From positions 186,001 to 250,000 of the forward strand of contig NZ_LR130575.1 in assembly GCF_900625025.1 (NCBI RefSeq): a stretch of DNA of 64,000 bases. Direction: 5' to 3'. The DNA comes from Lachnoclostridium sp. Marseille-P6806. Its GTDB lineage: Bacteria; Bacillota; Clostridia; Lachnospirales; Lachnospiraceae. The notes under the pieces were generated by a model, which saw only the letters and a program-made list of their open reading frames with translations, was not told the origin of the DNA and did no database searches. The position numbers were made by a program, and so were the translations under genes. Positions 4,648-34,188 of this stretch are shown here, one piece after another (the stretch's first letter is position 1; every line of letters begins with the position of its first letter).

Positions 4648-4737
4648 ATGCAGGGCTGGCAAAATTTGTTTTTTGTTTTATCATATCATTCATAAAAACT
4701 CATTTTTTGAATTTCATGAAAATGTACGGTGAGAATT

Positions 4738-6534
4738 ATGGAAACAACAGCACTTACCAAATATGAGCAGGACGTTCTTTTGTCTCTGTTTACAGAACGC
4801 TATGAGACGCAGCGCATTCTGTCGGAGCGGACGGGCTTTTCCATCGGCATTGTGAACCGCGCGCTGAAGCGGCTGAAAGCGGCCGGCTGTCTCAACGAGG
4901 ACATGGAGCTCACGGCGCGCGCGCGCGAAATGCTGCGGGCGGGCGCGCCGCGAGCTGCGGTCATTCTGGCGGCGGGCTACGGCATGCGGATGACGCCGGT
5001 CAGCATGGAGCTGCCCAAGGCGCTGCTCCGTGTGAAAGGGGAGGTTCTGATCGAGCGGATCATACGTCAGCTTCACGAGGCAGGCATTTACGATATTTCT
5101 GTCGTGGTCGGCTTCATGAAAGAGCGCTTTGAATATCTGATCGATGAATTCGGTGTCTCTCTGATTGTGAATTCGCTTTATTCCGTCCGGAATAATCTGT
5201 ATTCTCTGAGCCTTGCGGCAGCCCGGATCGGCAATACCTACATTATTCCGGCGGATATACGGGCGGAGCGCTCCCCCTTTTCCAAAGCAGAGGCGTATTC
5301 ATGGTATATGATTTCAGAAGCTCCGGACCGGGACAGCTCTGTCCGTTTGACGAGGGGACAGGAGCTGGAGGAGACGGACGGCAGAGACGGCAGCGGGAAC
5401 CGGATGATCGGGATTGCTTATCTGGAGGGCGGGACGGCGGACAGGGTCCGTGCCAGAGTGGAAGCGATGGCGGAAGATCCCCGTTTCGATGACTGCTTCT
5501 GGGAGGAGGCGCTGTATCCGCCCCGCGCCGATCACCGCCGCCCGCGCAGGATGGAGCTCTGGGGGAAGCTCGTGGATGAGGAGGCTGTGATTGAGATCAA
5601 TACCTGCGAGCAGCTGCGGGAGCTGGATGCCGCCGCAGAGGCTCTCAGGTCGCGCGCCTTTTCGACGCTTGCCGGAATTTTTCATGTGCCGCCCGAGGAG
5701 ATCAGGGACATCGACGTCCTGAAAAAGGGAATGACGAACCGCTCCTTTCTGTTTTCCTGCGGCGGCGTGAAATATATTATGCGCATTCCCGGAAAGGGGA
5801 CGGAAAAGCTGATCGACAGAGAGCAGGAGGCGGCGGTCTACCGCGCGATATCCGGGCGCGGGCTGTGCGATGATCCGGTTTATATCGATGCTCGCACCGG
5901 CTATAAGGTGACGCGTTACCTGCCCTCGGTGCGAAGCTGCGATCCGCATTCAGAGGAGGATCAGAGGAAAGCGATGGCCATTCTTCGCAGGCTCCATGAG
6001 ATGAAGCTCAGCGTGGATCACAGCTTTGATCTGTTTGCGCAGATGGAGCGCTACGAGGCGCTGTGGGGCGGAGAGGCGTCGGTTTTCCGCGATTACGAGA
6101 GAACGAAGAGGCAGGTGCTGTCGCTGAAAGACTATATCGCCTCCTGTCGGCCGGAATATGTGCTTTCGCATATTGACGCGATACCGGATAATTTTCTTTT
6201 TTATGCGGATGAAGCCGGAGAGGAGCGGGTTCAGCTCACCGACTGGGAATACGCGGGGATGCAGGATCCGTATGTGGATATCGCCATGTTCTGCATTTAC
6301 AGCGCGTACAGCCGGGAGGAGAGCGATCATCTGATGGAGCTTTACTTCGGCGGAGACTGCGGGCCGGCGATACGGGCGAGAATATACTGCTACATGGCGG
6401 CGGGGGGACTTCTCTGGTCGAACTGGTGCGAGTACAAACGCTCGCTCGGGGTGGAGTTCGGGGCGTATTCGCTGATGCAGTACCGCTATGCCAAGGAATT
6501 TTACCGTCATGCCGCAAGGCTGATACAAGGCTGA
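4738..6534 (+). CDS. HTH / LicC-like cytidylyltransferase / LicA-like choline kinase fusion
   Basis: A 598-residue three-domain protein. Residues 5-60 form a MarR-like winged helix (SERTGFSIGIVNRALKRL). Residues ~67-290 are a nucleotidyltransferase with the pyrophosphorylase signature ILAAGYGMRMTP and MELPKALL, as in LicC phosphocholine cytidylyltransferase. Residues ~300-595 are a choline/ethanolamine kinase-type fold with Brenner motif HIDAIPDN and metal motif DWEYAG, as in LicA. Together they would phosphorylate choline (or a related alcohol) and activate it as the CDP derivative. A GTG at 4729 is an alternative start, but GGTGAG precedes ATG 4738. A BCCT carrier follows after 15 bases and a LicD transferase lies in the same locus, which supports phosphocholine decoration. 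The substrate is inferred, not shown. Confidence 0.85.
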   Translation: METTALTKYEQDVLLSLFTERYETQRILSERTGFSIGIVNRALKRLKAAGCLNEDMELTARAREMLRAGAPRAAVILAAGYGMRMTPVSMELPKALLRVKGEVLIERIIRQLHEAGIYDISVVVGFMKERFEYLIDEFGVSLIVNSLYSVRNNLYSLSLAAARIGNTYIIPADIRAERSPFSKAEAYSWYMISEAPDRDSSVRLTRGQELEETDGRDGSGNRMIGIAYLEGGTADRVRARVEAMAEDPRFDDCFWEEALYPPRADHRRPRRMELWGKLVDEEAVIEINTCEQLRELDAAAEALRSRAFSTLAGIFHVPPEEIRDIDVLKKGMTNRSFLFSCGGVKYIMRIPGKGTEKLIDREQEAAVYRAISGRGLCDDPVYIDARTGYKVTRYLPSVRSCDPHSEEDQRKAMAILRRLHEMKLSVDHSFDLFAQMERYEALWGGEASVFRDYERTKRQVLSLKDYIASCRPEYVLSHIDAIPDNFLFYADEAGEERVQLTDWEYAGMQDPYVDIAMFCIYSAYSREESDHLMELYFGGDCGPAIRARIYCYMAAGGLLWSNWCEYKRSLGVEFGAYSLMQYRYAKEFYRHAARLIQG

Positions 6535-6549
6535 TAAAGGAGATGAGCC

Positions 6550-8070
6550 ATGTCTGATGAGAAAAATAGGAGAGCGGGGGGGCGTATCGACTGGCTGATC
6601 ACACTTCTCCCCATGCTCTCGATTACACTGCTCGGCGTCCTGTTTTTCCTGTTCCCCGCGGGCGCCAATCGTGTGCTGGGGGATATCCGCACATTGCTCG
6701 GCGATACGTTCGGGGTATATTATCTTGCCGTCGGTGTGTTCATCTTATCCGTGACGCTCTATATGGCGTTTTCAAAGTACGGGAACATTGTATTGGGAGA
6801 ACCGGGAGAGAAGCCGAAGTATTCTTTCTTTACATGGGGCGCGATGATGTTCACCTGCGGGCTTGCCGCCGATATTCTGTTCTATTCGTTCTGCGAGTGG
6901 ATTCTCTACGCCGCGGATCCTCATATCGGCGAGCTCGGCAGCATACAGGACTGGGCGAGCGTGTTTCCGCTGTTTCACTGGAGCTTTATTCCGTGGGCGT
7001 TTTATCTGGCGCTGGCGGTGGCGTTCGGCTTCATGCTGCATGTGAGGAAGGGCAGCAGGCAGAAGTATTCCGAGGCCTGCCGGCCGCTGCTCGGCAGGCT
7101 TACGGACCGGTGGCCGGGGCGGCTCATTGACCTGCTGGCGGTGTTTGCGCTGATCGCGGGCACGGCGACGACGTTCAGCGTGGCGACGCCGCTGATGGCG
7201 GGCGCGATCGGAGAGCTGTTCCATGTCCCGCTCGGCAGAACCGCAGTGACGGTGCTGATACTTCTGGTTACCTGTGTGATTTATACGTATTCGCTGCTCA
7301 AGGGAATCCGCGGGATCAGTATTCTCGCAAAAGGCTGCATTTATCTTTTCTTCGCGCTTCTTATCTATGTTCTGCTGCTTGGAGGGGAGACGCGCTATAT
7401 TGTGGAAACGGGATTTTCGGCCATGGGCCGGCTTTTTCAGAATTTTATCGAGCTTGCGACCTTTACGGATCCGCTCCGCACAACCGGGTTCCCGCAGAGC
7501 TGGACCATCTACTACTGGGCCTACTGGATGGTCTGGTGCGTGGCGGCACCGTTCTTTATCGGGAGCATATCGAGGGGGCGCACGATCCGGCAGACGGTGC
7601 TCGGGGGCTACGGCTTCGGCGTGGGCTCGACGCTGATCAGCTTTATCATTCTGGGAAATTATTCGATGGGAAAGCAGCTCTCCGGAGCCTGTGATTTCAT
7701 CGCCGCATATCGCGAAAACGGCGATCTCTATGAGATCATCATAAGCATGATCCGGACACTTCCGTTTCCCGCGCTGGTTCTGGCGCTTCTCCTTGTCACC
7801 ATGATCGCGTTCTACGCGACCTCCTTTGACTCGATCGCGCTGATCGCGTCCTGTTACAGCTACCGGCGTCTGGAAGAAAACGAGCAGCCGGACAGACGGA
7901 TTGAGCTGGCTTGGTGTATACTGTTAATAGTGCTGCCGATCGCGCTGCTCTTTTCCGAGAGCTCGATGAGCAATATCCAGTCGGTGAGCATCATTGCGGC
8001 ATTTCCGATCGGGATCGTGATGCTGCTGATCGTGTTCAGCTTTTTTAAGGATGCGAAGCGATATCTCTGA
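6550..8070 (+). CDS. BCCT-family transporter (choline/betaine type)
   Basis: A 506-residue polytopic membrane protein with about twelve hydrophobic segments. The BCCT signature is visible as YYWAYWMVWCVAAPFF followed by GSISRGRTIR, where the GRT element is characteristic of the family. BCCT proteins import quaternary amines such as choline, betaine or carnitine, coupled to sodium or proton gradients. AAGGAG at 6537-6542 precedes the ATG by seven bases. Its position directly after the choline kinase/cytidylyltransferase fusion suggests that it supplies choline to that pathway, taking the place of LicB, which in classical lic loci is a DMT-type permease. Hairpins follow the gene. An osmoprotectant role is possible, but the neighbours argue against it. 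Confidence 0.9.
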   Translation: MSDEKNRRAGGRIDWLITLLPMLSITLLGVLFFLFPAGANRVLGDIRTLLGDTFGVYYLAVGVFILSVTLYMAFSKYGNIVLGEPGEKPKYSFFTWGAMMFTCGLAADILFYSFCEWILYAADPHIGELGSIQDWASVFPLFHWSFIPWAFYLALAVAFGFMLHVRKGSRQKYSEACRPLLGRLTDRWPGRLIDLLAVFALIAGTATTFSVATPLMAGAIGELFHVPLGRTAVTVLILLVTCVIYTYSLLKGIRGISILAKGCIYLFFALLIYVLLLGGETRYIVETGFSAMGRLFQNFIELATFTDPLRTTGFPQSWTIYYWAYWMVWCVAAPFFIGSISRGRTIRQTVLGGYGFGVGSTLISFIILGNYSMGKQLSGACDFIAAYRENGDLYEIIISMIRTLPFPALVLALLLVTMIAFYATSFDSIALIASCYSYRRLEENEQPDRRIELAWCILLIVLPIALLFSESSMSNIQSVSIIAAFPIGIVMLLIVFSFFKDAKRYL

Positions 8071-14577: not shown

Positions 14578-15429
14578 ATGAAAAAGCTGAGCATAGAGGA
14601 GGAGCAGTCAATTCAGCTTGAAATGCTGGATTATCTGGACGCCGTCTGCCGGGAGGAGAAGATTCCGTATTATCTGGCATATGGAACGCTGCTGGGAGCG
14701 GTCCGCCACGAGGGCTTTATCCCGTGGGACGACGACATCGATCTGTTTATCCGCCGCACGGATGCGGAGCGTCTTGCCGAGGCGGTGAAGCGCCGCCCGG
14801 ACCCGCGCTTCTTCTTTCAGGACGAGCATACGGATCCGTTCTATCTGTACCCGGGGATGTTCCGGCTGTGCCGGGACGGGACGCTGAAAATGCCGGAGAC
14901 GTACTGGGATGCGCCGTTTCACAAGGGAATGTATCTGGATATTTTTGTGCTCGACGAAGCGCTGGCCGACCGGCAGCGCGACCTCGCGGCCTATCGGCGC
15001 TGCGCTCTGGCAAAAGTTCTCCTCCGGACAAGGTTCAAGAAATTCCGTGAAAATACCAGCCTCAGGGGAGCGGCGGCGTGGATGCTGGCCCACACACTTC
15101 CGTACGGCATGCTGCAGCGTTATGCCGTGCGCCAGATTACGGGGAGAAAAGGCCGAAGAGATGAGGAGACGCTGATCACCTACCTTGGCATGGAGGACGA
15201 TCCGGCGGAGGGAATCTGCCCGTCTTCGTGGTTCGCACGGACGGAGGAGGTGAATTTCTGCGGCAGGCGCTGCCCGGCGCCGGCCGGAGCGCATGAATTT
15301 CTCCGCTTTCTGTACGGGGATAACTATATGACCCCGGTAAAGACAAAGGATCATTTCTATCCGGCGTATCTTCTGGACGAGGAAGAAAGAAAGAGCTTCG
15401 AGAGGGCGGAATGGGGAGCAGACGGTTGA
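14578..15429 (+). CDS. licD: LicD-family phosphotransferase
   Basis: A 283-residue cytoplasmic protein with the LicD nucleotidyltransferase-like core. The diagnostic block YLAYGTLLGAVRHEGFIPW followed by DDDIDL holds the metal-binding aspartates. LicD enzymes transfer phosphocholine (or in relatives ribitol-5-phosphate, glycerol phosphate or similar) from the CDP-activated form onto a sugar. AGAGGAG precedes the ATG. Its role fits the upstream kinase/cytidylyltransferase fusion and the BCCT carrier: import, phosphorylate, activate, then attach. The stop overlaps the next gene by 19 bases. The exact headgroup remains inferred from these neighbours. Confidence 0.9.
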   Translation: MKKLSIEEEQSIQLEMLDYLDAVCREEKIPYYLAYGTLLGAVRHEGFIPWDDDIDLFIRRTDAERLAEAVKRRPDPRFFFQDEHTDPFYLYPGMFRLCRDGTLKMPETYWDAPFHKGMYLDIFVLDEALADRQRDLAAYRRCALAKVLLRTRFKKFRENTSLRGAAAWMLAHTLPYGMLQRYAVRQITGRKGRRDEETLITYLGMEDDPAEGICPSSWFARTEEVNFCGRRCPAPAGAHEFLRFLYGDNYMTPVKTKDHFYPAYLLDEEERKSFERAEWGADG

Positions 15430-26950: not shown

Positions 26951-28179
26951 AGCACACGGAAAAACAGAATCAAAGACCGGAGGAACGGGCTGTTTTTCCG
27001 GTCGACAGGGCCGTTTTTGCGCTGCTCGACCGGTATCTCTTTCCTATTGCCGCACTGTTTCTTTTCATAGGCTCTCTGTATATCCGCCGCTCGATGATCT
27101 ATTTTGCTTCGGGCGACTATCTGGACTGCATCGTGGTGTGGGTTGAGCAGTACCGGGCTCTGGGACTGCGGCAGGGGCTTGCCTCGACCATCGGGGATTA
27201 CTATGTGCCGTATAATCTGATCCTTGCGCTGGCGTCCGTATCCGGGCGGGAGCCCTACGCGGTGGTGGGAGGCTTTTCCGTTCTCATGGAATACGTCGGG
27301 GCGGGAGCGGCGGCGGGGATATGCCGCGGCCTCCTAGAGGAAAAGGGGGTAACGCATGCGCGGCGTCTGTCCGTCCTTGCGGCGCTCGCCCTGCTCTACA
27401 TTCCGGAGGCGGCGATGAACGGGGCGCTCTGGAAGCAGTGCGACGCGGTGCACACCGGCTTTATTCTGGTCAGCCTCTATTTCCTCCTCCGGGAGAGGTA
27501 TTCGCTCAGCTTTGCCTTTCTTGCGCTCGGCTTTGTGTTCAAGCTGCAGACGCTGTTTGTGCTTCCGTTTTATCTTATATTCTATGCGGTGCGGCGGCGC
27601 TTTTCGATTCTGCAGTTCCTCTGGCTCCCGGCGATGTACCTGCTTGCGGGGCTTCCGGCCATTCTCCTCGGACGAGACGCGGCGCAGACCTACGGCGTCT
27701 ATTTCTCGCAGACGGGACACTATCAGCTGATGACGCTGAACGCGCCGAATATCTGGAGCTTTGGCATGACGGATTATCCGAGCCTCAAGAGCTTTGCGCT
27801 GGTGCTGACAGCGGCGGTGTTTGCCTGTATGCTTATATTTATTGCGGGGCACGCGGAGAGGCTTTGGGGCGAGCATTGCCTGCTGCTCGCCGGCTGGTCG
27901 GTCATGACCTGCTTCATGTTTCTCCCCGCGATGCACGAGCGCTATGATTATGCGGCGATTGTGCTCCTTACGGCCTATGCGCTCCTATTTTGCAGGAAAA
28001 TGCTGATCCCCGCGGCAGGAATGATCGTCTGCGGGATGGTATCCTACGGCAATGCGCTGTTTGCTTCGGAGGCCGGCATCGGGCTTCTGCCGTTTGCGGC
28101 GCTCTACTGCGCCTGCTGGGCGGCGGTCACCGCGGGGATGATACGGATTTTCGGTCGGAGAGATGAGAATGCAGAGTAA
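26947..28179 (+). CDS. GT-C-like integral membrane glycosyltransferase
   Basis: A 410-residue polytopic protein. The frame is open upstream, but the true start is ATG 26947, preceded by AAAGGAAAGAGG and overlapping the previous stop. After the first helix comes FASGDYLDCIVVWVEQYRAL, an early loop with Asp residues as in PMT/ArnT-like mannosyltransferases, and IGDYYVPYNLILAL. Further along, LKQC-like features (GALWKQCDAVHTGFILVSLY) match the 'W.Q.D' loop of GT87/GT39-type enzymes. About ten helices. It probably uses a polyprenyl-phosphate sugar on the outer face. The sugar is unknown. Confidence 0.68.
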   Translation: MKHTEKQNQRPEERAVFPVDRAVFALLDRYLFPIAALFLFIGSLYIRRSMIYFASGDYLDCIVVWVEQYRALGLRQGLASTIGDYYVPYNLILALASVSGREPYAVVGGFSVLMEYVGAGAAAGICRGLLEEKGVTHARRLSVLAALALLYIPEAAMNGALWKQCDAVHTGFILVSLYFLLRERYSLSFAFLALGFVFKLQTLFVLPFYLIFYAVRRRFSILQFLWLPAMYLLAGLPAILLGRDAAQTYGVYFSQTGHYQLMTLNAPNIWSFGMTDYPSLKSFALVLTAAVFACMLIFIAGHAERLWGEHCLLLAGWSVMTCFMFLPAMHERYDYAAIVLLTAYALLFCRKMLIPAAGMIVCGMVSYGNALFASEAGIGLLPFAALYCACWAAVTAGMIRIFGRRDENAE

Positions 28180-29773
28180 TGTACTGGAATGGCTGGACCG
28201 CACGGCGGACCGGCAGGCGGAAAAAATATGCTACCGGGATGATCGGGAGAGCATCACGTTTGCGGAAGCAAGACAGGAGGTGCGGCGCATGGGCGAGGCG
28301 CTCGCGGAACGGCTCGAAAGCGGAAGCGGAGGCGACGGGTCGGCGCTTGAGGTTTCGCCCGTGGCGGTGATGCTGGGCCGAAGCGTGCGCACGATTCTCG
28401 GCTATCTTGCGGTGGTGTATGCGGGGCACTGTTATGCGCCGGTCGACGCGGCGCTCCCCGCGGAGCGCATACGGAGCATGCTGGATACGCTCCGCGGCGC
28501 TCCGGTCCTCACGGACAGGGAGCACGCCGGGGTTCTGAGGCAGCTCGGGTTTACAGGGACGGTGCTGCTCATGGAGGAACTGGCAGCGGGATGCGAAAAG
28601 GCAGGATGCAAAGAAGCGAACATCAAAGAAGCGAATAGCAAAGAAGCGGAAGCCGCGGGCGGCGGGACAGGACTCTCTCTCGCGCGGGGGCGTTCGGCGT
28701 CTGACCCGCTCTATATCATCTTCACGTCGGGATCGACCGGCCGGCCGAAAGGGGTTATCACCGCGCATGCCTCGCTCATGAACTACATCGAGGCCTACCG
28801 GGAGGTCATGAACATCGGCGCGGACGATATTCTCGGCAATCAGTCGCCGCTTGACTACATCGCGGCGATCCGGGACATCTATCTGCCGCTTCTTACGGGC
28901 TGCTCGAGTTATCTCATCCCGCGGGAATATTTTATGGAGCCGGAGAGGCTCTTCGACTGTCTTGAAAAGAACAGGGTCACGGCCGTGGGGTGGAGCGTTT
29001 CCGCGTTCACGGTGCCGGCGGCGCTCGGGGCCTTTGCGGAGCCGGGCGGTCTGCGGCTCTCCGCGCTCCGCAAAATCTGCTTTTCCGGTTCTGTCATGCC
29101 GGGCAGGGTGCTGCGCCTGTGGCAGACGGCGCTCCCGTGGGCGCGCTTTGTAAATCAGTACGGGCCGACGGAGGCGACGGCCTCCTGCACCTATTATCCG
29201 GTCGATCATCCTGCCGGGGAGGACGAGACGCTTCCCATCGGCGTCCCCTACCGCAATTACCGGGTCTTTCTCCTTGGAGAGGACGGACGCGCCGTCCCGC
29301 AGGGGGAGGAGGGCGAGATCTGTGTCGGAGGGCCGGTGCTGGCGCTCGGCTATTATAATGATCCGGATCGGACAGCGCGGGACTTCATTCAGAATCCGCT
29401 GAACCGGAGCTTTTTTGAACGGATCTACCGGACCGGAGATTACGGCGTTTTCCGTGCGGACGGGATGCTCGAATTCCACGGGCGCAGGGACAGGCAGATC
29501 AAGCACATGGGGCACCGCGTCGAGCTGGACGAGATCGAGACGGCCGCCATGAAGCGGGACGGCGTCGGCGAGTGCGCGGCTCTGTATCAACCGGATAAGG
29601 AGATCATCTATCTGTTCTATACCGGCAGCTTATCGCCCCGCGAGGTCATTCTGGGGCTGCGGGAGAGCCTGCCCGGCTTTATGGTTCCGCGGAGGGTAAA
29701 GCAGCTTGGCGCGCTGCCGAAGCTCCCGAACGGAAAGACGGATATGGCGGCCCTCCGGGAGCGCATGCGATAA
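28169..29773 (+). CDS. DltA-like amino-acid adenylating enzyme (AMP-binding)
   Basis: A 534-residue ANL-family enzyme that should adenylate an amino acid and load it on a carrier protein. Core motifs are all present: A3 IIFTSGSTGRPKGV, A4 SPLDYIAAIRDIYLP, A5 NQYGPTEATAS, A7 YRTGDYG, A8 GRRDRQIKHMGHRVELDE and A10 LPKLPNGKTD with the catalytic lysine. Length and C-terminal architecture match D-alanine ligase DltA. ATG 28169 is preferred over ATG 28163 because CGGAG at 28156-28160 is then eight bases away. A loop near residues 147-161 is a three-unit repeat. A carrier protein, a PLP decarboxylase, an SGNH protein and an MBOAT follow. The amino acid is not predictable by eye. Confidence 0.88.
   Translation: MQSNVLEWLDRTADRQAEKICYRDDRESITFAEARQEVRRMGEALAERLESGSGGDGSALEVSPVAVMLGRSVRTILGYLAVVYAGHCYAPVDAALPAERIRSMLDTLRGAPVLTDREHAGVLRQLGFTGTVLLMEELAAGCEKAGCKEANIKEANSKEAEAAGGGTGLSLARGRSASDPLYIIFTSGSTGRPKGVITAHASLMNYIEAYREVMNIGADDILGNQSPLDYIAAIRDIYLPLLTGCSSYLIPREYFMEPERLFDCLEKNRVTAVGWSVSAFTVPAALGAFAEPGGLRLSALRKICFSGSVMPGRVLRLWQTALPWARFVNQYGPTEATASCTYYPVDHPAGEDETLPIGVPYRNYRVFLLGEDGRAVPQGEEGEICVGGPVLALGYYNDPDRTARDFIQNPLNRSFFERIYRTGDYGVFRADGMLEFHGRRDRQIKHMGHRVELDEIETAAMKRDGVGECAALYQPDKEIIYLFYTGSLSPREVILGLRESLPGFMVPRRVKQLGALPKLPNGKTDMAALRERMR
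28607..28651 (+). repeat. Three 15-base tandem units inside the adenylating enzyme
   Basis: Three consecutive 15-base units sharing CAAAGAAGCG encode GCKEAN, IKEAN and SKEAE in a solvent-type loop between the N-terminal region and the A3 motif. In-frame copy change would alter only loop length. Confidence 0.75.
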
Positions 29774-29831
29774 AGCGGGAGCGCATGCAGTAAGGGAGCG
29801 CATGCGGTAAAGCGGGAAAGACTGCGGTAAA
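29757..29831 (+). repeat. Imperfect 17-20 base tandem repeat at the end of the ligase gene
   Basis: Units begin GGGAGCGCATGC and end in TAA or TAAAGC: 29757-29776, 29777-29793, 29794-29813, with a degenerate fourth unit 29814-29831 (GGGAAAGACTGCGGTAAA). The first unit contains the ligase stop codon, so the repeat grew from the gene's own 3' end. It separates the ligase from the carrier-protein promoter. Confidence 0.8.
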
Positions 29832-29834
29832 ATA

Positions 29835-29866
29835 TTGCCGTGCGGGAGACGGCGGCATGCTATAAT
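29835..29866 (+). promoter_or_regulatory. Extended -10 promoter for the carrier-protein operon
   Basis: TGCTATAAT (TATAAT at 29861-29866) is a perfect extended -10 element. The best upstream hexamer, TTGCCG at 29835-29840, is at a long 20-base spacing, so the promoter probably relies on the extended -10. It lies 50 bases before the carrier-protein start. Confidence 0.6.
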
Positions 29867-29916
29867 GATCGGGAATTCAGAACGCATAGAAATTCGTTGC
29901 AGTGGAGGATAAGTCA

Positions 29917-30147
29917 ATGAGAGAAGAGCTTCTGGAAATTCTGCAGGATGTCCGGCCGGATGTGGATTTTGAGAAAGAGCAGAAACTGATCGGCGACGGG
30001 ATACTGGAATCCTTTGATATCATTTCTCTGGTTTCGGAGCTGAATGACGCGTTTGACATCGAGATCACGCCGAGGGAGCTTAAGCCCGAGAACTTCAACA
30101 GTCTTGACGCGATGCTGGCGCTGATCCAGAGACTGCAGGAGGAGTGA
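29917..30147 (+). CDS. Acyl/peptidyl carrier protein (DltC-like)
   Basis: A 76-residue acidic carrier protein. GGAGG eight bases upstream fixes the start at ATG 29917 rather than the GTG at 29902. The phosphopantetheine attachment site is Ser32 in GDGILESFDII, the DltC-like 'ES.D' form of the usual 'DS' motif. Four predicted helices and an overall negative charge fit. It would receive the aminoacyl group from the ligase upstream and present it to the decarboxylase and then to the MBOAT at the membrane. The stop overlaps the start of the decarboxylase (TGATG), giving tight coupling. It has its own promoter upstream. Confidence 0.9.
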   Translation: MREELLEILQDVRPDVDFEKEQKLIGDGILESFDIISLVSELNDAFDIEITPRELKPENFNSLDAMLALIQRLQEE

Positions 30148-31346
30148 TGGGCGCGGCGGTGATCGGCGCGGCGCCGGAGACGCCGGCCTATATACTGGAC
30201 GAAGCTGTGTTCCGGCGGCGGGCCGCCGCGGTCAGCGCAGCCTTTGAGGGGCGCATCCCGCTTGTCTACTCCATCAAGGCCAACGCCTTTTTGCTGCATG
30301 CGCTGCCGGAGGAGCTGAGACATGTGGAGGTATGCAGCCCGGGAGAGCTGGCGCTCTGTGAAAGGCTCGGCGTCGCCCCGGAGAAAATCATTTATTCCGG
30401 TGTGATGAAAGAGGCGGAGGATATCGCGCGGGCGATCCGGTACGGCGCGGATATTCTGACGGCGGAGAGCCCGGAACATTACCGCCTCATCTGCGAGCAG
30501 GCGGCCGCCGCGGGGATTACGGAGGATCAGCCGCTTCGCCTGCTTCTGCGGTTTACCAGCGGAAACCAGTTCGGGATGAGCGGGGAGGAGCTCTGCCATA
30601 TTGTGAAGAACCGGCGGGAGCATCCGGAGCTTGCGCTGATTGGAATTCATTATTATTCGGGGACACAGAAAAAGCTGCGTCAGATCGAGAAAGATCTGGC
30701 GCGGCTTGAGGCGCTTCTGACCTCGCTCAGGGAGGAAGCGGGCTTTGAGGCGGCGCTCGTCGAATACGGACCGGGGCTTCCGGCCGATTATTTTGAGGGA
30801 ACGGACCTGGGCGCGGCGGCGCTCGCGGAGGAATGGGAGATGGGGGCGCTGCGCGATGCGGCGGCGCGGCTTCTCCCCTTTGCGGGAAAATATCCGCTGT
30901 CCGTCGAACTGGGACGTTTTCTGGCCTCGCCCTGCGGAGAATATCATACAGCCGTCCGGGATATCAAGCGGAACGACGGGACGGATTATGTGATCTTGGA
31001 CGGAGGCATCCATCAGCTCCGCTATTACGGGCAGACCCTGTCCATGCAGGTTCCGGAGCTTCATGTGCTCCGGAACGGCTGCGAGGCGGAGAGCCCGGCG
31101 GAGCGGAGGCCGTACTGCCTTTGCGGGAGCCTGTGCACCGTAGCGGATGTCCTCGTCCGCGAGGCACAGCTCCCGACGCTCGCTGCCGGGGATGAGCTGG
31201 TGTTCGGCCGCTGCGGGGCCTATTCGCTGACGGAGGGCTCGGCGCTGTTCCTTACAAGGCAGCTTCCCGCCGTCTATCTGCGGCGCGCGGACGGCACACT
31301 TGAAAGAAAGCGGGCGATGACGGAAACCTGTGCGCTGAATGCCTGA
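30147..31346 (+). CDS. Fold-III PLP decarboxylase (DAP/ornithine type, possibly carrier-dependent)
   Basis: A 399-residue PLP enzyme of the alanine-racemase-fold decarboxylase group. Lys44 in YSIKANAF forms the Schiff base. LIGIHYYSGTQ replaces the usual HIGSQ block, VEYGPGLPADYF replaces the GGG phosphate loop, and CGSLCTVADVL plus GRCGAYSLTEG form the C-terminal active site. These substitutions are shared, as far as I recall, with enzymes like BtrK that decarboxylate an amino acid while it is thioesterified to a carrier protein. The gene overlaps the carrier-protein stop, which supports such a role here. AGGAGG precedes ATG 30147. Free diaminopimelate or ornithine decarboxylation is the alternative. 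Confidence 0.82.
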   Translation: MGAAVIGAAPETPAYILDEAVFRRRAAAVSAAFEGRIPLVYSIKANAFLLHALPEELRHVEVCSPGELALCERLGVAPEKIIYSGVMKEAEDIARAIRYGADILTAESPEHYRLICEQAAAAGITEDQPLRLLLRFTSGNQFGMSGEELCHIVKNRREHPELALIGIHYYSGTQKKLRQIEKDLARLEALLTSLREEAGFEAALVEYGPGLPADYFEGTDLGAAALAEEWEMGALRDAAARLLPFAGKYPLSVELGRFLASPCGEYHTAVRDIKRNDGTDYVILDGGIHQLRYYGQTLSMQVPELHVLRNGCEAESPAERRPYCLCGSLCTVADVLVREAQLPTLAAGDELVFGRCGAYSLTEGSALFLTRQLPAVYLRRADGTLERKRAMTETCALNA

Positions 31347-31360
31347 GCCCGGTGTGATGA

Positions 31361-32647
31361 ATGAACGGAACTGAGAAACTGAAAAAACTGCTTCGCGCGG
31401 CTTTGTTTATCTGTATTCTGCTGTCGGCGGAATTTGCTGCGAGATATGCCATGAGCGACGACCGCTATGCGGTCTCGCGTTTTATGCTGCATGAAATGTA
31501 CACCGGCGAGGAGGATATCGACGCACTGTTCATCGGCGCGTCGCATGTGCAGCTCGCCTTTGATACCGGTCTTCTGGATGAGCTGCTGGACGGGGAGACG
31601 TTCAATGCGGGCAGCTCCATGCAGAACCTCGGGACAAGCTATGCGCTGCTTCGGGAGATCGGCGCGCATCACCGGCTAAAGCGCGTTTATGTGGATCTGG
31701 ATCCGTCGATGCTGCTCTCGGACGATGTCAGTCTGGAGAGCATTTTTGCGATATCGGACTATATGCGGCCCTCTTTCCGGAAGCTCGGGTATCTGCTTGA
31801 TGTCACGCCGGAGGGGAACCTCATGAATACGCTCATGCCCTTTGGAAAGGGACGGAGCTATCGGAAAGAGCCGGCTGCGGTGCTGGAAAACCTCCGCTAC
31901 AAGCTGTCCGGGGACTATCTTCATTACCGGGAGCCGGACGGCTCGTATGCCGGCAAGGGGTATATCGCGAGCCGCGTCCGTCTTCCGGGCGACAGCTTCG
32001 GGACGGGAGGCAGCTTGTCCCCGCTGTCCGGCAGGATCACGGAGCGGAATCTTGCCTATCTTGAAAAAATCATCCGCTACTGCCGTAAGGAGGGGGCGGA
32101 GCTCTCCTTTGTGGTCGTCCCCATGTCGGATTTCCTGCTTCTGGGAGAGGGAAATTATGACAGCTATGCCGCGGAACTTCGGGAGGCTCTCGCGGGGAGC
32201 GGCGTCCCGCTCTATGACTTCAATCTCATGAAGCCGGAATATCTCGATCTGCGGGAACAGCGGTATTACTCGGATATGGAGCATCTGAACCGGGGGGGTG
32301 CGGAGCGCTTTGCCGCGGCCTTTGCCGCGCTGGTCCGGGGAGACGCGCCGGCAGAGGATATGTTCTTTGGCTCTTACGGGGAAAAAATACAGGAAGAGAC
32401 AGAAAACGGAGATCAGAGCTACTACGGCGTCGCTCTTCAGTCGGAGGAGCACGGCTTCCGGCTCACTCCGGTCGCGGCCTGCACGGAGGAGGAAAGAGCC
32501 CGCATCCGCTACCGTGTGCGCTATGATGCGGAGGGAGATTATATCACCGCGGAGCTGGACGGAACGATACTCGGCGAGAGCTTTGTCGGCGCGGAGGAGA
32601 TCAGCGGTGAGAACCGTTTCCTTGGAGAGGAGGGCGCGGCGCCATGA
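31361..32647 (+). CDS. DltD/AlgX-like SGNH-fold membrane-anchored protein
   Basis: A 428-residue protein with one N-terminal membrane anchor (LLRAALFICILLSAEFAA) and an extracytoplasmic SGNH-type domain. LFIGASHVQLAFD holds the catalytic serine in the GxSH form seen in DltD, and YYSDMEHLNRGGAERF the Asp-His pair. DltD-like partners take the acyl group released outside by an MBOAT and place it on the polymer. The C-terminal ~80 residues (after EDMFFGSY) form an extra beta-rich segment. The ATG overlap with the MBOAT gene indicates a functional pair. The ribosome binding site is weak (GGTGTGA). Confidence 0.85.
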   Translation: MNGTEKLKKLLRAALFICILLSAEFAARYAMSDDRYAVSRFMLHEMYTGEEDIDALFIGASHVQLAFDTGLLDELLDGETFNAGSSMQNLGTSYALLREIGAHHRLKRVYVDLDPSMLLSDDVSLESIFAISDYMRPSFRKLGYLLDVTPEGNLMNTLMPFGKGRSYRKEPAAVLENLRYKLSGDYLHYREPDGSYAGKGYIASRVRLPGDSFGTGGSLSPLSGRITERNLAYLEKIIRYCRKEGAELSFVVVPMSDFLLLGEGNYDSYAAELREALAGSGVPLYDFNLMKPEYLDLREQRYYSDMEHLNRGGAERFAAAFAALVRGDAPAEDMFFGSYGEKIQEETENGDQSYYGVALQSEEHGFRLTPVAACTEEERARIRYRVRYDAEGDYITAELDGTILGESFVGAEEISGENRFLGEEGAAP

Positions 32648-34188
32648 GCATCACCTCTCTGCCATTTTACCTTTTCGTCTTTTTATTGCTCGCGCTGTAC
32701 TACACCGCGGGTCGGCATTTTAAGTGCCAGTGGGGGATTCTTCTTGCTGCAGGAATGCTTTTTTATGCGTATTCCGGAGGCAGGAACATCGCCCTGATCA
32801 TCTTCACCGCGGGCTCCTGCTGGTGCGGCGGGCTGTGGCTCGAGCGCTTTGATGCGGGAACAGGAAGCGCAGCCGGGGAAAATGAGAGCCGGGAGCTGCG
32901 GAAGCGGAGAAAGGAGCGTCTACGGAGACGGAAAAAGCTCCTGCTGATGCTGCTTCTCCTTTTGAATCTCGGTATTCTTGCCGCTTTGAAATACTGGAAG
33001 CTCGGAAGGCTCGGCATACTGCTCCCTCTGGGAATTTCTTTCTATACCTTTCAGTCGCTCGGATATCTCCTTGATATCTATTACGGGAGATGCCGGGCGG
33101 AGAGGAACTTCCTCCGGTTTCTCCTGTTTGTTTCCTTTTTCCCGCAGCTTCTTCAGGGTCCCATCAACCGCTATGATGCGATGAAAGAGTCCCTCTTTTC
33201 GGAGCACAGCCTGTCGTGGGACGAGCTGAAGCGCGCCGTGCTGCAAATCGGGTTCGGCCTTGTCAAAAAGCTGGCGGTGGCCGATCTCCTCGCGCAGCCG
33301 GTCGCGGATGTTCTGGACGGGGATGTCTCCGGCCGCTCCGGCGCGCTGATCGCCTTTGCGGTGCTCCTTTATTCCGCGCAGCAGTACTGCGATTTCTCGG
33401 GAGGAATCGACGTCGTCATAGGGGTGTCCCGTCTGTTCGGCGTGACGATGGCTCCGAACTTCCGCCAGCCCTATATGGCGGTGTCTCTGGCGGATTTCTG
33501 GCAGCGCTGGCACATTTCCCTCGGCGCATGGATGAAAGACTATGTGTACTATCCGTTTGCCCTGAGCAAAACGGCGCAGCGGCTGCAAAAGCGGGCGGCA
33601 GGGCGCTTCGGGCGGCGGATGGGCCTTGTACTCGTCGGCGCTCTGGGAAATCTGCTGGTGTTTTTCCTCGTCGGGCTGTGGCACGGGGCGGAGCTTCATT
33701 ATATTCTCTGGGGGCTGTATAATGGACTCATCATTGCGCTGGGAACGCTGCTGGAGCCGGCCTTTGCGGGCTGGAGAGCGCGGCGCGGCATAGCGGACGG
33801 CGCGGCGTGGCTCCGGGGCCTGCGCATTGTCAGAACCTTTCTCATTGTCAATATCGGCTGGTATTTTGACCGGATCGCCGACGCGGGCATGGCCTTTGCT
33901 GCGCTTCGGCAGACGGCGGTGCATTTTTCGGCGGCGCCGTTTCTGCCGCAGTACCGGACGCTTGTCGGGGAGGACCTCTCCGGACAGAAAATCGTCCTTG
34001 CGGCGGCGGGACTTCTGCTGGTGCTGGCGCACAGCATACTGCGTGAGAGGAAAACGGATGCGGCGGCGCTCCTCCTGCGCTGTCCTGTCGTTCTGCGCTG
34101 GGGTTTTTATTACGGCATGATTCTGCTGATTCAGATCGCCTGTGATATCAGCTCCGGGGCGGCGCCGTTTTTATATGCGTATTTCTGA
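32644..34188 (+). CDS. MBOAT acyltransferase (DltB/PatA-like)
   Basis: A 514-residue integral membrane protein of the MBOAT family. LPLGISFYTFQSLGYLLDIYY, FFPQLLQGPINRYD, SLADFWQRWHISLGAWMKD and GLWHGAELHYILWGLYNG are the consecutive family blocks; the His of GLWHGAE (about residue 347) is the conserved catalytic residue. MBOATs of this type carry an acyl or aminoacyl group from a cytoplasmic carrier protein across the membrane. It is coupled by ATGA overlap to the SGNH protein and follows the ligase, carrier and decarboxylase, giving a complete Dlt-like path. The transported group is inferred from these neighbours. Confidence 0.92.
   Translation: MSITSLPFYLFVFLLLALYYTAGRHFKCQWGILLAAGMLFYAYSGGRNIALIIFTAGSCWCGGLWLERFDAGTGSAAGENESRELRKRRKERLRRRKKLLLMLLLLLNLGILAALKYWKLGRLGILLPLGISFYTFQSLGYLLDIYYGRCRAERNFLRFLLFVSFFPQLLQGPINRYDAMKESLFSEHSLSWDELKRAVLQIGFGLVKKLAVADLLAQPVADVLDGDVSGRSGALIAFAVLLYSAQQYCDFSGGIDVVIGVSRLFGVTMAPNFRQPYMAVSLADFWQRWHISLGAWMKDYVYYPFALSKTAQRLQKRAAGRFGRRMGLVLVGALGNLLVFFLVGLWHGAELHYILWGLYNGLIIALGTLLEPAFAGWRARRGIADGAAWLRGLRIVRTFLIVNIGWYFDRIADAGMAFAALRQTAVHFSAAPFLPQYRTLVGEDLSGQKIVLAAAGLLLVLAHSILRERKTDAAALLLRCPVVLRWGFYYGMILLIQIACDISSGAAPFLYAYF

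Follow-up and report, generated by a model that had tools for sequence, protein, structure and literature searches.

Dlt-like gene cassettes with a BtrK-like decarboxylase in Lachnospiraceae and a predicted carrier-dependent decoration of surface polymers

Esterification of teichoic acids with D-alanine adjusts the charge of the cell surface and the way in which cells respond to cationic peptides. In Lachnoclostridium sp. Marseille-P6806 (family Lachnospiraceae), a cassette resembling the Dlt system for such D-alanylation also encodes a pyridoxal phosphate (PLP)-dependent decarboxylase, and the question is what an enzyme of this kind might do there. The DNA analysed, hereafter the window, is a stretch of 64,000 nucleotides (contig NZ_LR130575.1, C2:186001-250000) within a 3.13 Mb genome. 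We consider it probable (roughly 65%) that the cassette combines Dlt-like aminoacyl decoration with decarboxylation on the carrier protein.

The five-gene cassette and its decarboxylase

The genes for a ligase, a carrier protein, the decarboxylase, an SGNH protein and an MBOAT protein are consecutive, all on the + strand, at positions 28163-34188 of the window (Table 1). Four of the five products are named by Pfam models above cut-off, namely AMP-binding, PP-binding, ornithine/diaminopimelate (DAP)/arginine decarboxylase (both domains) and MBOAT; the SGNH protein had no Pfam or NCBIfam match. An earlier note on this DNA had listed these genes in this order, mostly coupled, with the decarboxylase starting on the carrier stop codon. 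This description holds: the decarboxylase ATG at 30147 overlaps the carrier stop as TGATG (GTG 30144 is an alternative start) and the MBOAT start overlaps the SGNH stop (ATGA). The ligase gene also stands, with its start at 28163; position 28169, given previously, lies two codons inside it. The carrier may start at ATG 29917 or alternatively at GTG 29902, and Met occupies the 29917 position in 77 of 137 relatives. Its phosphopantetheine serine (30010-30012, Ser37 from GTG 29902), previously likened to that of DltC, is kept in all 137.

Table 1. Cassette genes and selected neighbours, by position in the window.
Feature	Position	Strand	Details
Adenylating ligase, DltA/nonribosomal peptide synthetase A-domain superfamily	28163..29773	+	536 aa; Pfam AMP-binding 209 bits
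Carrier protein	29917..30147	+	PP-binding 22.1 bits, cut-off 20.8
Fold-III PLP decarboxylase, BtrK-like	30147..31346	+	Lys45, DGGIHQ, GSLCT (Cys331), numbered from 30144
SGNH protein, DltD-like, membrane-anchored	31361..32647	+	428 aa; Ser61, His308; model and Foldseek
MBOAT O-acyltransferase, DltB-like	32644..34188	+	514 aa; MBOAT 94.3 bits; His347 in GLWHG
Nucleotidyltransferase/choline-kinase fusion, LicC/LicA-like	4729..6534	+	NTP_transf_3 44.6 bits, Choline_kinase 53.2 bits
BCCT (betaine/carnitine/choline) transporter	6550..8070	+	Pfam BCCT 407.7 bits
LicD family protein	14578..15429	+	Pfam LicD 114.9 bits

Of 299 sampled genomes of Lachnospiraceae, 60 encode a relative of the decarboxylase (E value of at most 1e-20). 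The window, 60 regions from these family genomes and 80 named loci (80 of at least 556 stretches) made up a set of 141 loci, in which the 61 and the 80 partly overlap (e.g. L034 and Agathobacter ruminis L096 share identical decarboxylases). Within 7 kb of the decarboxylase, these loci encode a carrier in 137 cases, a ligase in 134, an MBOAT protein in 112 and an SGNH protein in 108. The decarboxylase thus keeps company with a ligase and a carrier elsewhere, as the earlier reading demanded, and this sharing of a locus with a dedicated carrier and ligase is of the BtrK/VinO type. Since the set recurs in many genera of Lachnospiraceae, in other families of Bacillota and in Actinomycetota, the five-gene association is more than chance. 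MBOAT and SGNH genes are absent nearby in 29 and 33 of the 141 loci, respectively, and the trio of ligase, carrier and decarboxylase is therefore a steadier unit than the five-gene set; some of these cases are contig ends, and several loci with the trio alone have at least 7 kb of flank on each side.

Among solved relatives of the window decarboxylase, BtrK scored best (7.2e-22, about 27% identity), ahead of SbnH and the DAP decarboxylases. BtrK, which with BtrI acts in butirosin synthesis and turns a glutamyl carrier into a 4-aminobutyryl carrier, is a precedent for carrier-bound decarboxylation (PMC7857480, in part). Motifs and phylogeny were compared for 29 of the 141 cassette decarboxylases. 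All 29 have CT at the cysteine loop together with QFG, and the DAP-decarboxylase motifs RPxxY and CE were absent from this sample; in the LysA-type rows, CE was present in 9/9 and RPxxY in 8/9. CT is also found in BtrK and seven others of its group, and QFG is common to BtrK and the cassette proteins. In the tree, the cassette decarboxylases form one clade (100/99) and the LysA rows another (100/97). BtrK falls on the cassette side, as do the exosortase-type rows; where BtrK and its group join, the branch is drawn with own_C4_dec as a long branch, and exact sister relations are unsure. Locus L093, which comes from the weakest of the 60 genomes (G108) and is counted among the 141, has a decarboxylase that falls in BtrK's group and a ligase code unlike the rest. 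The analogy with BtrK proposed earlier is thus upheld by sequence, tree and motifs, and a grouping with free DAP decarboxylases, which the earlier note had named as contrary evidence, was not found. In addition to CT, QFG and tree side, the window cassette and the butirosin system share a carrier as partner; the other partners in the window are instead two membrane proteins of Dlt type, and antibiotic genes were not seen there.

An alpha-decarboxylase requires a free alpha-carboxyl; therefore, a substrate loaded on the carrier must hang by another carboxyl. In the mechanism that we propose, the ligase would adenylate the side-chain carboxyl of Asp or Glu and load the carrier, with an Arg of its pocket (Lys in the other ligase subtype) holding the free alpha-carboxylate. 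By analogy with BtrK and VinO, the decarboxylase would then strip the alpha-carboxyl from the carrier-bound residue, giving a beta-alanyl thioester from Asp or a 4-aminobutyryl (gamma-aminobutyryl, GABA) thioester from Glu. Finally, by analogy with Dlt, the MBOAT and SGNH proteins would hand the group over to a glycopolymer at the cell surface, esterifying its hydroxyls and making it more positively charged. The VinN-VinL-VinO set, in which a beta-amino acid is loaded and then decarboxylated on the carrier, is a precedent for the carrier-bound step (as described in part of PMC11284099).

Ligase pocket, order of steps and cargo

The pocket register was taken from an alignment with LgrA, whose correspondence to GrsA numbering we take to be as given here. 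The window ligase has Ile233 (GrsA 235), Ala234 (236), Arg237 (239) and Ser308 (301). The 130 ligases of at least 450 aa from the 134 loci with a ligase fell into two subtypes, DK (Asp233 and Lys237, n = 72) and IR (Ile and Arg, n = 57, including the window), plus the outlier L093. The order ligase-carrier-decarboxylase was found in 57/57 IR and 0/72 DK loci, and in 70 of the DK loci the decarboxylase directly follows the ligase. Because gene order follows ligase subtype, these are two old lineages, each with its own ligase type and gene order and, to some extent, its own decarboxylase residues; the decarboxylase motifs are nearly identical in both. On the same contig, upstream of the window (L176:9726-11276), there is a second stand-alone adenylating ligase with the pocket S-M-F, followed by cytidylyltransferase-like, aldolase-like and thiamine pyrophosphate (TPP)-enzyme-like genes, with no carrier or MBOAT within 6.5 kb.

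All 130 decarboxylase-linked ligases have Lys or Arg at GrsA 239 and Ser or Val at GrsA 301. As controls, 56 of the regions with ligase matches were fetched, the matches having been gathered with a paralogue upstream of the window that lacks an adjacent decarboxylase and with the DltA model, and most of these regions contain the ligase, carrier, MBOAT and SGNH set without a decarboxylase. In all, 186 ligases were counted; these score at least 430 bits and are 420-800 aa long, and the second, DltA-type ligases found in L133 and L138 are left aside. The 56 ligases with no decarboxylase near comprise 12 with both pocket features, 20 with the basic residue only and 24 with neither. These counts are not independent, because in a ligase tree (a sample of 45 DK/IR-type ligases, decarboxylase-linked or with Asp-Val-Lys (DVK) or Ile-Ala-Arg (IAR) codes, plus all other codes) the linked ligases reduce to one DK/IR clade (Shimodaira-Hasegawa approximate likelihood-ratio test, SH-aLRT, 89), L072 and the pair L155/L173. 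For the association of pocket and decarboxylase, there are three supported independent pairs with none contrary, too few for significance. Judged from its residues, the pocket supports an acidic amino acid as the ligase substrate.

VinN loads 3-methylaspartate as a beta-amino acid and has bulkier residues at GrsA 236 and 301, and A236V was present in every sequenced TycA variant turned to a beta-amino acid (both from part of PMC11253843). The linked ligases all have Ser or Val at GrsA 301; at 236 and 301, DVK ligases have Val and Ser, and the window type Ala and Ser. The vicenistatin system and its kin likewise combine a stand-alone ligase, a carrier and a PLP decarboxylase (PMC11284099, in part). 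Its ligase VinN, however, has a loop shorter by one residue with Arg at GrsA 331, whereas the window and L044 ligases are ungapped; by this loop, the window ligase is not of the VinN type. The window family has Arg or Lys at GrsA 239 in place of the short-loop Arg and seems to do VinN's job with another pocket.

As to the cargo, the residues Asp233 and Val234 found in the DK type hint at Asp as the acid and beta-alanine as the product, and loss of Asp233 in the window type would allow Glu and GABA. A GABA thioester tends to cyclise, which favours beta-alanine. For the window cassette, we put a beta-alanyl group at slightly under even odds, with GABA a possible second candidate and any other group unlikely. 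The earlier note had named a GABA-type group as an example of the amine made on the carrier; beta-alanine is at least as likely.

The same surface product would result if the steps ran in the opposite order, with the decarboxylase making free beta-alanine or GABA and the ligase loading the finished amine. Product and gene set would be identical, and IdnL3 of incednine biosynthesis does act on the free acid before loading (PMC11284099, in part). An amine without a second carboxyl has no need, however, of a basic pocket residue, and the relatives BtrK, FigC, SbnH, AcsE and MccE act on conjugated substrates (according to parts of PMC7857480). Furthermore, seven DVK ligases belong to complete four-gene cassettes that lack a nearby decarboxylase, and for four of these ligases the whole genome gave no decarboxylase match. 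Since these ligases persist without the enzyme, the ligase is independent of it, which fits loading first. We regard decarboxylation of the free acid as unlikely.

Relation to known systems and the target of the group

The cassette shares with the Dlt system its ligase, carrier, MBOAT and DltD-like SGNH proteins and, probably, the principle of loading a carrier and passing the group across the membrane; it differs in the extra decarboxylase. In the ligase tree, true DltA proteins form a clade of their own, and at GrsA 235, 236 and 239 they have D-L-M or D-L-A, as opposed to I-A-R in the window. The window proteins score below the cut-offs of two DltA models (220.3 bits against 559.85 and 230 against 476), two DltC models (36 against 68 and 21.9 against 52.35) and the DltB model (168.6 against 375), and so the cassette is not a Dlt D-alanylation system as curated; no DltA above cut-off was found in the genome. 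Nor is it the exosortase A-associated pair of ligase (TIGR03098, 179.3 of 592.35 bits) and decarboxylase (TIGR03099, 137 of 478.45 bits), which occurs as the same trio beside glycosyltransferases, e.g. in Sinorhizobium meliloti and, without that name, in Paracoccus. The exosortase-type ligases have a VinN-like short loop and stand apart in the ligase tree, and no MBOAT is annotated in the two stretches compared; the short loop with Arg was seen in five of six plasmid-locus ligases (Sinorhizobium, Paracoccus, Shinella, Streptomyces, Rahnella) that adjoin related decarboxylases. Thus, the cassette is probably Dlt-like in its working, with an added BtrK-type step, and it is a member of none of the Dlt, LysA, VinN and exosortase families.

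For the SGNH protein, the model (predicted local distance difference test, pLDDT, 79.5) has DltD as its best Foldseek matches in the PDB (E 1.4e-7, template modelling (TM)-score about 0.4). Its modelled resemblance to DltD, as claimed earlier, is one of fold similarity only; Ser61 and His308 are conserved in 104/106 and 106/106 relatives, respectively. His347 of the MBOAT protein is conserved in 107/107. Elsewhere in the window, the choline-kinase fusion, the BCCT transporter and the LicD protein suggest that the locus also serves phosphocholine-type decoration. Further neighbours include a glycosyltransferase, an epimerase, a flippase-like protein and, upstream, an initiating-transferase-like protein (the last by eye). 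From this context, the target of the cassette is likely a surface glycopolymer with phosphocholine.

The trio is, as noted, found alone in several loci with long flanks, and similar trios serve small molecules in butirosin and vicenistatin synthesis (the sources cited above, in part), so that the group might go to a lipid, a peptide or a small molecule, with the MBOAT and SGNH proteins serving other cargo. The frequency of both proteins among the 141 loci, their presence as partners in four-gene sister cassettes and the setting of the window cassette among polymer genes all make this rather improbable. Finally, that a free DAP, lysine or ornithine decarboxylase sits in a Dlt-type operon by chance is very improbable: the protein belongs to the same Pfam families and scores 133.4 bits with the lysA model (below the cut-off of 297.9), and DAP decarboxylases head the structure list, with BtrK differing by about one Z unit, but it lacks RPxxY and CE, falls in a separate clade and is linked to ligase and carrier, and a LysA-type gene lies elsewhere in the genome (C2:281232; 274.7 bits with the same model, also below cut-off). 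The window decarboxylase is accordingly not assigned to LysA.

Distribution, sister cassettes and implications

In the genus of the window, 12 of 25 genomes have a match, and the decarboxylases of the other members are at most 44% identical to that of the window, as against 53% for L034 from another genus, which suggests exchange of the gene between lineages. Across the phylum, at the strict limit of 1e-70, four of 398 genomes matched, two of them in the window's family, including the window's own genome. The full cassette of window type is present in the rumen isolates Ruminococcus albus KH2T6 (L111) and Agathobacter ruminis JK623 (L096). In L133 and L138 (Pseudobutyrivibrio), the trio is followed, a few kb on, by a DltA-clade ligase and a second carrier, and there may be two aminoacyl systems in one locus. 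At L072:6213-9557, the decarboxylase is the first part of a longer frame of 1114 aa, in which a low-complexity linker, a transmembrane segment and an end resembling a transglutaminase follow (features judged by eye); this may be a fusion or a frame error. An unannotated 15 kb record from faeces that is filed as a phage (MT836540.1, hit H31) encodes a relative with 35% identity and is possibly a bacterial contig.

By the ligase tree, decarboxylase presence has changed several times, and one class of sister cassettes carries another accessory gene. Ligases with Asp-Ala-Lys (DAK), of which 19/25 have Gly at 308, adjoin a racemase gene in 11 of 22 ligase-centred loci (L264, L265, L266, L278-L280, L282, L283, L287, L293 and L306, all four-gene Dlt-like cassettes with an aspartate-racemase-family gene); no such neighbour was found in any other ligase class. 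The racemase profile was built from the three loci where the gene was first noticed, and eight of the eleven matches came after. The three racemases that were scanned scored above cut-off with both the asp_race subfamily model and the cysteate racemase model. Because the DAK class has the same Lys, its neighbourhood ties this pocket residue, as far as sequences go, to an acidic substrate; these cassettes are perhaps a system for D-aspartyl or D-cysteyl-sulfonate esters. Tentatively, and with rather less confidence than an even bet, we see the Dlt-like cassettes of Lachnospiraceae and their kin as one modular family, with the cargo set by the pocket and one accessory enzyme: beta-alanyl or GABA with the decarboxylase, a D-aspartyl-type group with the racemase and other groups with other pockets.

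What is new here is the link between the ligase pocket and the neighbouring enzyme, and the predicted decoration by a carrier-made amine would be a new kind of surface decoration; as far as literature searches show, nobody has looked for such chemistry. The link gives cargo predictions and would let other cassettes be read from sequence. If the cassette does attach such an amine, many gut anaerobes would owe part of their surface charge and recognition to this chemistry. The modular family, if real, would mean that gut bacteria mark their surface polymers with an aminoacyl code whose elements can be exchanged.
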